This document shows, piece after piece, positions 32,797-62,010 of a DNA stretch of 64,000 nt; positions within the stretch are counted from its first letter, which is position 1; every line of letters begins with the position of its first letter. The notes under the pieces are model-generated. The model worked only from the letters and a program-made list of their open reading frames with translations, was not told the DNA's origin and ran no database searches. Position numbers and translations under genes: made by a program. The DNA lies in NCBI GenBank assembly GCA_947037115.1, contig CAMQTN010000001.1, positions 61,500 through 125,499 on the forward strand, in the 5' to 3' direction. This stretch comes from an uncultured Lachnospiraceae bacterium (GTDB taxonomy: Bacteria; Bacillota; Clostridia; Lachnospirales; Lachnospiraceae).

Positions 32797-34422
<1,626 letters not shown>

Positions 34423-34545
34423 GGCGCAAAAGGAAAAACAAGCGGCGCGGAGCGACATTTGTTTTTCCAGCGCCGTGAACGAGCAAAGGGCCGTCGCAGA
34501 CGGACAGAAAGCGCGATAGCGCGTCTTTGCGAGTTTAATAGTGTA
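34423..34545 (+). ncRNA. Structured intergenic element, copy A (candidate RNA or palindromic repeat)
   Basis: Stem 1 GGCGC-aaaa-GGAAAAACAA/TTGTTTTTCC-a-GCGCC; stem 2 GCAAAG/CTTTGC enclosing CCGTC-gca-GACGG and GCGC-gata-GCGC; homologous to 61889-62010. Confidence 0.6.
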
Positions 34546-34549
34546 AAGG

Positions 34550-34593
34550 AAAGGACGTATCCCCCAAGTATGCTTGAGGGGATACGTCCTTTT
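34550..34593 (+). terminator. Very strong hairpin, probable groEL terminator
   Basis: AAAGGACGTATCCCC...GGGGATACGTCCTTT 15-bp stem plus inner CAAG/CTTG. Confidence 0.75.
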
Positions 34594-34697
34594 CGAGTGG
34601 ATGGTATGGCGAAGCCAAACGATAGCGAGAGGCTATGCCTCGAGCAATGCTGCGCCGAAATATTCAAGCGGCGCAGCCTCGAGTTGAGGCGGCGCCG

Positions 34698-47091: not shown

Positions 47092-47438
47092 GGGCCAGTC
47101 AAGGTTTCGACAGGGGTCCTGCAGCTGGAGAAGCTATCCGCAGGCTGATGCGTGAAATCGCAAACTTAAACACAAACGCTGAAGACAATTTAGCATACGC
47201 TGCCTAATGGCAGCTGTCCGCCTTAGTGCACCTGCACATTAAGAACCGGGCATCGACTATGCAGGAAACGACGCGGGGGACGCCTCTTACCCGCGGGCGT
47301 ATCAGAGGCTACTGAATCCATGAGGGTGTCTTTCTCCACATGGAGGAGGGAATGAGGAGCAATCCGGAATGAGAGACTATGATAGTAGAAGGACAGGGAA
47401 TGGGCTTTTGGACACGGGTTCGACTCCCGTCTGGTCCA
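47092..47438 (+). ncRNA. ssrA: Transfer-messenger RNA (tmRNA)
   Basis: 5' GGGCCAG pairs with 3' CTGGTCC; tag ORF ANLNTNAEDNLAYAA-stop at 47160-47207; T-arm GGGTTCGACTCCC; adjacent to smpB; CCA not encoded. Confidence 0.96.
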
Positions 47439-47639
47439 CTGGGATAAGTTCTTAAATACTCTTTTTATACGGGTGTTTAAGGACTTTTCTTTTTCTGAAG
47501 GTGAAATACTCACAAAAAATACGCACAGGAAATATACACATGCGGACCTGTTCACAATTCACTGGACATAGCTTCTGTTTAGCGGTAAAATAAGAATAAA
47601 TATGTTTTTTTTAATTCTTATGAGGAGGGTGGCAGAGCT

Positions 47640-61768: not shown

Positions 61769-61888
61769 AGTGCAATGAGGAACACCCGGAACGCGTGTTG
61801 TGAGTGGCGGGGCTGAATGGTTTCCTGTGACTTCGCGATTCCCGGTCAGGTTTTTACTTGTAAGAATAGAAATTGTGGGGTATAATGT

Positions 61889-62010
61889 AATAACGCAGAG
61901 AAAAAGCAAACGGTGAAGAGCGGCATTTGTTTTTCTGCGTTATTAATGAGCAAACGTCCGATGAAACAGGACAAAGAGTGCGAAGCACGGTTTGCGAATT
62001 TAGATGTAGA
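61889..62010 (+). ncRNA. Structured intergenic element, copy B (candidate RNA or palindromic repeat)
   Basis: AATAACGCAG/CTGCGTTATT extended by AAAAAgCAAA/TTTGTTTTT; GCAAAC/GTTTGC enclosing GTCC/GGAC and GTGC-gaa-GCAC; homologous to 34423-34545. Confidence 0.6.

Follow-up and report, generated by a model that had tools for sequence, protein, structure and literature searches.

A mobile hairpin repeat of Lachnospiraceae with an internal trinucleotide usually complementary to its left flank

Described systems closest to the element

IS608 recognises its target through pairing by guide bases, and the element can be retargeted by changing them (PMC5934647). The repeat family reported here was noticed as two copies, A and B, in a 64-kb stretch of Lachnospiraceae DNA (the window, meaning the whole stretch analysed). 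It resembles IS608 and the IS200/IS605 group in being inserted 3' of a short target that is kept as the left flank, in carrying beside a hairpin foot an internal guide complementary to that flank, and in that a change of guide goes with a change of target (PMC5934647). It differs in that the element has no coding sequence and several carriers have no Y1 gene, in that its one guide lies at the foot of the second module (H2) with none seen at the left-guide position, and in that stem 1 is prolonged by pairing of the left flank. As in IS200/IS605 elements, insertion at atpH/atpA and groEL is 3' of a short retained target without target duplication. With respect to their two guides, the one before H2 pairs with the left flank, no left guide was recognised, and right-end pairing was not evident by eye. 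Judged from its sequence, the element would seem to work most like IS608, and the lack of a Y1 gene in several carrier MAGs speaks against its membership in IS200/IS605.

REPs are short interspersed palindromes with conserved stem mismatches, which are strand-specific and moved by TnpAREP (PMC8266576). The element shares the short structured form, stem mismatches and strand specificity of REP/REPIN sequences (PMC8266576), but it is ~115 nt long, has two modules, a sense-strand bias and a defined landing motif, and its alignment lacks the GTAG-type tetranucleotide found in REPs 5' of a 20–50 nt palindrome. BOX and RUP of pneumococcus and ERIC of enterobacteria are structured mobile repeats of ~100–130 nt in transcribed intergenic DNA, BOX having a modular build in which inner units are repeated (PMC3049150). 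These are the nearest known repeats in size and modular habit; the element differs from them in having neither terminal inverted repeats nor a constant target duplication, and in its sense-strand location at a -10 box or a stop codon, with flank-guide complementarity. A classical MITE moved by a DDE transposase was rejected, as the ends are not mutual inverted repeats and no constant duplication is seen between empty and filled sites.

Group II introns choose their targets through EBS-IBS pairing of the 5' flank with internal sequence. The element likewise has an internal sequence that pairs with its 5' flank; however, it is only 115 nt long, no ribozyme core or domain V was recognised in it, no splicing is expected, and several carriers have no reverse transcriptase match. 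To our knowledge, a flank-guide relation is known only in IS200/IS605-type elements and, at the RNA level, in group II introns. The family is a further sort of small non-autonomous mobile repeat, with such a relation.

Fold, spread and partial copies of the family

Copies A and B are both present where the first-pass annotation had placed them, and the sequence contains the blocks GAGCGRCATTTGTTTTTC, GAGCAAA and TTTGCGARTTTA that it described as shared, together with every pairing-preserving stem difference that it quoted (Table 1). The 18-mer GAGCGRCATTTGTTTTTC occurs at two places in the window with up to 3 mismatches, in copies A and B, against a chance expectation of 0.12, and compared with their own shuffles the folds of A and B have z values of -3.9 and -4.8, respectively. 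Copy A starts immediately 3' of the groEL stop codon and, judged from the empty allele in relatives, ends at ~34538; thus, the last few bases of the interval first assigned to it (34423–34545) are host sequence. A terminator-like hairpin follows outside the element, and copy A therefore lies within the groEL 3' region.

Table 1. Features of copies A and B and neighbouring sequence (window coordinates), with example copies elsewhere in the family
Feature	Position or copies	Strand	Basis or remark
Copy A host flank, groEL stop TAA (left target trinucleotide)	34420..34422	+	conserved groEL end ...ATGATGTAA in relatives with and without the element
Copy A, entire element	34423..34538	+	model match; groEL TAA marks the left end, filled/empty comparison the right end
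Copy A, covariance-model match	34421-34536		converted from contig coordinates
Copy A module 1 (stem 1 and hairpin H1)	34423..34474	+	folds, consensus pairs, covariation
Copy A stem 1 arms, GGCGC / GCGCC	34423-34427 / 34470-34474	+	folds, consensus pairs, covariation
Copy A H1 arms	34432-34441 and 34459-34468	+	folds, consensus pairs, covariation
Copy A guide trinucleotide TGA	34476..34478	+	mismatched case, flank TAA
Copy A module 2 (H2), closing stem GCAAAG/CTTTGC, GA facing GA	34479..34534	+	folds, covariation
Copy A H2 inner hairpins, CCGTC/GACGG and GCGC/GCGC	within 34479..34534	+	
Terminator-like hairpin and T run, outside the element	34550..34594	+	read from sequence
tmRNA gene (RF00023)	47092-47441		
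Promoter-like TTGTAA-17-TATAAT, immediately left of copy B	61858..61886	+	read from sequence; the family is found most often at promoter-type sites
Copy B, entire element (model boundaries)	61890..62001	+	model match, E 1.7e-20
Copy B module 1, stem 1 AATAACGCAG (61889-61898) / CTGCGTTATT (61935-61944), with H1	61889..61944	+	sequence, fold
Copy B guide TTA	61943..61945	+	complementary to flank TAA (61888-61890)
Copy B module 2 (H2), GCAAAC/GTTTGC, GTCC/GGAC, GTGC/GCAC	61946..61999	+	sequence, fold
16S rRNA gene start	63207-64000		
Copies with all or part of themselves repeated downstream (examples)	L052, L258, L267, L246, L294		
Flank TAG / guide CTA	L059, L228, L229, L280, L289		
Flank TGA / guide TCA	L114, L299, L301, L311, L316		
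Flank GAA / guide TTC	L112, L279, L291		
Flank TAC / guide GTA	L248		
Flank CAC / guide GTG	L261		

The element, ~115 bp long and coding for no protein, is built on its top strand of two modules: stem 1, variable in sequence and mostly paired, with hairpin H1, and then the three-way module H2. H1 (AAGAAAAACAAGCGRC...GRCATTTGTTTTTC) contains an irregular AAGCG/CATTT step in nearly all copies. In H2, two hairpins stand between (A)CGAGCAAAC and GTTTGCGAG(T), and GA lies opposite GA, so that tandem G/A mismatches close the module. The three bases between module 1 and H2, usually TTA, are the guide; the right end is degenerate. A covariance model (R1; 115 positions, 40 pairs) was built from 18 copies, in which 91.4% of cells are paired versus 36–47% with the 3' partners slid. 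Both sides have changed in 19 of the 40 pairs (shuffle mean 8.6) and in 54 cells (shuffle mean 15.6), values reached in none of 500 shuffles. Strong covariation across the 18 copies and in-place compensatory changes in orthologous copies uphold the selection on structure claimed earlier, and template switching could contribute to these changes. A variant of ~85 nt with H2 cut down to one hairpin is present in G172, G204 and, by match length, G147; loci of this variant (L125, L126, L128 and L130, from G172, G204, G170 and G147) are often in tandem at a spacing of 105–118 nt.

The family is interspersed, as the first-pass annotation had proposed. Further copies came at first from an exact pattern search of the source genome and Lachnospiraceae MAGs and were then collected by model search; the covariance model suggested there as a check recovered copies in both. 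The source genome has 27 copies at E ≤ 2e-7, or 32 when the cut-off is relaxed to E ≤ 0.006, copies A and B included, model E-values being rough. In model searches, in which most sequences were MAGs, 31 of the 37 genomes searched from the genus had the family, as did 33 of the 250 sampled from different genera of Lachnospiraceae, and other families of the order gave two weak matches only. One named isolate, Lachnospira eligens ATCC 27750, has one copy, at 449657-449765 on the reverse strand of NC_012780; it directly follows the stop codon of a gene for an MBL-fold hydrolase, and hemZ comes next. A strict H1 pattern found no carriage of the element on viral contigs. Weak model matches in G063 and G127 (L133:1430-1620 and L134:1430-1650) belong to a different repeat, which has inverted GTAACAGTTCAGCC / GGCTGAACTGTTAC-like ends and several copies per genome.

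No family in Rfam 15 reached its gathering threshold or gave any match at E ≤ 10, which agrees with the earlier statement that the element belongs to no known class, and no known IS end or attenuator matching it was found. Each outcome named beforehand as speaking against that annotation, namely that only two copies exist, that covariation is absent, or that the segments match a known IS end or attenuator, is the opposite of what we obtained. The description as a structure-selected (RNA or extruding DNA) interspersed family of no known class is supported. Among open-licence PMC papers, we found no description of such repeats in Lachnospiraceae, and the family is apparently undescribed so far.

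Partial and repeated copies are frequent. A repeat of the element's own sequence lies downstream of 62 of the 155 copies, within ~10 nt to some tens of nt; it may be a complete unit, just module 2, or a 5' portion that commonly ends near the H1 apex. Genome G256 contains solo left ends of 30–34 nt, located at GATATAA and also ending near the H1 apex. Such copies could result from deletion at a hairpin or from incomplete copying. Upstream of hemZ in Lachnospira eligens (L332:2120-2148), a truncated second copy (GCGAAAAGGAAGCAACG) adjoins the hemZ start codon, and its AAGGA could act as a ribosome-binding site.

Mobility, insertion sites and flank-guide complementarity

The element is mobile. 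At atpH/atpA it is present in the source genome only, among 36 genomes with a readable junction, and the flank is common to related empty alleles (GGTACAGATATAG followed by AAAATT in G033; GGTACAGATATAG followed by CAGCCGC...GAGTCA and then AAAAAAG in G000). The groEL 3' site has the element in some species, remnants in some and nothing in others, and comparison of a filled with an empty allele shows a single clean insert: between G034 and G003 with G033, GATGATGTAA joined directly to CGTAATAAGC becomes GATGATGTAA, GGCGC...GAGTATAA and CGTAATAAGC. Neither junction has a constant target duplication in filled/empty comparison; a 3-bp repeat of TAA is possible at groEL, and none was seen at atpH/atpA. 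In the relative G256, copies at different loci are 98.5% identical. The empty alleles of both sites retain the flank as host coding sequence, and the trivial explanation of complementarity, that the flank is part of the element, was rejected.

Insertion is almost always on the coding (sense) strand. For 155 copies, the orientation of the neighbours (upstream gene, downstream gene) relative to the element, approximate as it comes from simple ORF and codon-usage calls, is (+,+) in 79, (-,+) in 39, (+,-) in 13 and (-,-) in 1, the rest having one side unresolved; these counts reject random orientation. The left end lies 3' of GAT[AG]TAA, a flank shared by two classes of site, the extended -10 box (TGATATAAT) and the stop codon. 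There are 55 distinct sites within 5 nt of a stop codon, and the 27 of these at distance 0 comprise 17 TAA, 7 TAG and 3 TGA. Another 82 distinct sites are at a promoter-like hexamer, with TATAAT in 65, an extended -10 TG in 49, and a best -35 score of at least 4 in 40 versus ~18 in shuffles. In many promoter copies, the first base of the element is the last T of the -10 box, and usual promoter spacing would put the transcription start of such copies within the 5' arm of stem 1. Neighbouring genes are diverse (groEL, atpH/atpA, etfB/etfA, thyA, a MATE transporter gene, hemZ), and the fixed position by one gene class or pathway expected of a riboswitch or leader was not seen among them.

In most copies the guide and the three host bases on the left of the insert are reverse complements, with flank/guide combinations TAA/TTA, TAG/CTA, TGA/TCA and GAA/TTC. 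For guides other than TTA, 33 of 49 match the flank, whereas shuffles give 11.0 ± 2.6 and none of 10,000 reaches the observed value; copy A is among the 16 without a match, and copy B matches. Mutual information between flank and guide peaks at the antiparallel cells (-1,-3) and (-2,-2), at 0.23 bits each (0 of 5000 permutations), and is weaker at (-3,-1), with 0.10 bits (reached in 3 of 5000). Both classes of site contribute: guides match in 19 of 26 stop-codon copies versus 5.5 expected (0 of 5000) and in 12 of 16 promoter copies versus 6.0 expected (1 of 5000). In the small set of promoter copies with a -10 box ending at least 3 nt before the element, 4 of 6 match, which is not significant alone. 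Complementarity is also seen outside the discovery set, as TAG/CTA in L371 and TGA/TCA in Lachnospira eligens ATCC 27750. The first-pass annotation was right about structure and an interspersed family; mobility, sense-strand landing after a GATRTAA-type sequence and covariation between flank and interior lay beyond its view.

Target choice and the mobilising enzyme

The reading that we prefer, with a probability of roughly 55%, is a non-autonomous hairpin element whose targets are chosen partly by base pairing and which later resides within transcripts. We infer a single-stranded intermediate, target choice by pairing and an enzyme acting in trans: the single-stranded hairpin form would be the substrate of a putative recombinase, the guide would pair with the target's final trinucleotide, which would remain as the left flank, as with the guide sequences in IS608. 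An altered guide would alter the chosen target. Insertion is precise, on the sense strand and 3' of a GAT[AG]TAA-like sequence, in practice at an extended -10 box or directly after a stop codon, after which the element would stand at a transcript start or between operon genes and its fold would tend to be kept. In G156, five copies with guide TCA occupy separate loci, all five with a TGA flank, and a sixth TCA copy, which lacks the 5' arm, is unpaired, which makes the guide appear inherited and the targets picked. Counting against this reading are the 16 mismatched non-TTA copies and the degenerate right end; moreover, no enzyme was found, the GATR 5' of the trinucleotide is not accounted for by the guide, and pairing can also be gained or preserved once a copy is inserted, given in-place compensation in orthologous copies. 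Flank and guide have changed together between the orthologous copies L285 and L289 (TAA before C with GTTA versus TAG before T with ACTA). In 18 same-site pairs of copies, with orthology judged from flank similarity, 24 base pairs have changed on both sides and are still paired, 18 are broken and 19 have changed on one side and still pair; some of these same-site pairs may be independent insertions. The L285/L289 change and the 24 double compensations therefore indicate that copies already in place also keep or regain their pairing, and the persistence of irregular steps in H1 and H2 speaks against repair as the sole explanation.

Template switching creates and repairs stems, multi-base compensatory changes included, and can do so without selection (PMC8794818). 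Targets could thus be set by the enzyme's own preference for GATRTAA, with complementarity made later by template switching (quasipalindrome correction) and having no role in targeting. Such a preference would account for GATR, unlike the guide, and the joint change in L285/L289 and the double compensations in same-site pairs agree with later repair; however, retention of the TCA guide at five separate TGA sites and in the unpaired orphan of G156, and the irregular H1 steps and GA/GA step of H2 left unrepaired in nearly all copies, make this account unlikely. A cis-acting RNA selected by the host, whether a 5' leader, an intercistronic regulator or an mRNA stabiliser, for which spread is secondary and stop-codon pairing is an RNA function, is less probable still. 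Near-exclusive sense orientation, location at transcript starts and just 3' of stop codons, and in-place compensation in same-site copies are what such an RNA would lead one to expect, but its neighbours are of the many kinds listed above, site occupancy varies between related species, and the flank of promoter copies and, by usual spacing, part of their 5' arm would be untranscribed and yet pair.

The enzyme was sought with Pfam profiles in carrier MAGs, and no mobilising enzyme was found by this search. Derivation from the IS200/IS605 or REP/TnpAREP world, with movement by a Y1 (HUH) transposase, is doubtful, though somewhat less so than the two accounts above, and overlaps the preferred reading. 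The logic is the same, in that a short target is retained with the insert precisely 3' of it, a hairpin stands near each end, a guide sits at the 5' foot of one, stems are irregular and one strand is specifically used (PMC5934647, PMC8266576), and Y1_Tnp occurs in some carriers (eight in G282, four in G244, and also in G204 and G172). Against it, Y1_Tnp (PF01797) was absent from G256, which is 99% complete and has the most recent copies, and from G156, G237, G147, G018 and G007, several of these six genomes being rich in copies and nearly complete, in Pfam-profile searches of MAGs that could miss divergent or unassembled genes; no left guide was found at the position it has in IS608, and no element was found with an ORF between such ends. 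Y1_Tnp was rejected as the mobiliser, as its presence does not track copy number, and so was a reverse transcriptase, which had no Pfam match in the MAGs of several carriers. An autonomous parent was also rejected: the solo left ends that a BLAST search for isolated ends recovered in G256 have ordinary genes on either side, and no ORF for a transposase was seen. Confidences given to these readings sum past one, since the Y1 account concerns the enzyme and overlaps the preferred reading.

A bolder form of the preferred reading is put forward only tentatively. A protein-less hairpin would select its sites by pairing of its own three-base guide, which would drift with its targets, lineages would specialise in TAA, TAG or TGA, an enzyme other than HUH Y1 would act on it, and promoters and stop codons would have been colonised across a major gut family.

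With the 155 copies analysed here, an abundant mobile family is added to one of the main families of gut bacteria, and by landing at a -10 box or a stop codon it spares genes. The family is a natural test of template switching versus selection as the cause of compensatory changes in stems. If the guide sets the target, this would be a naturally occurring inserter that can be retargeted and is much smaller than any IS, which would make the enzyme behind it worth finding.
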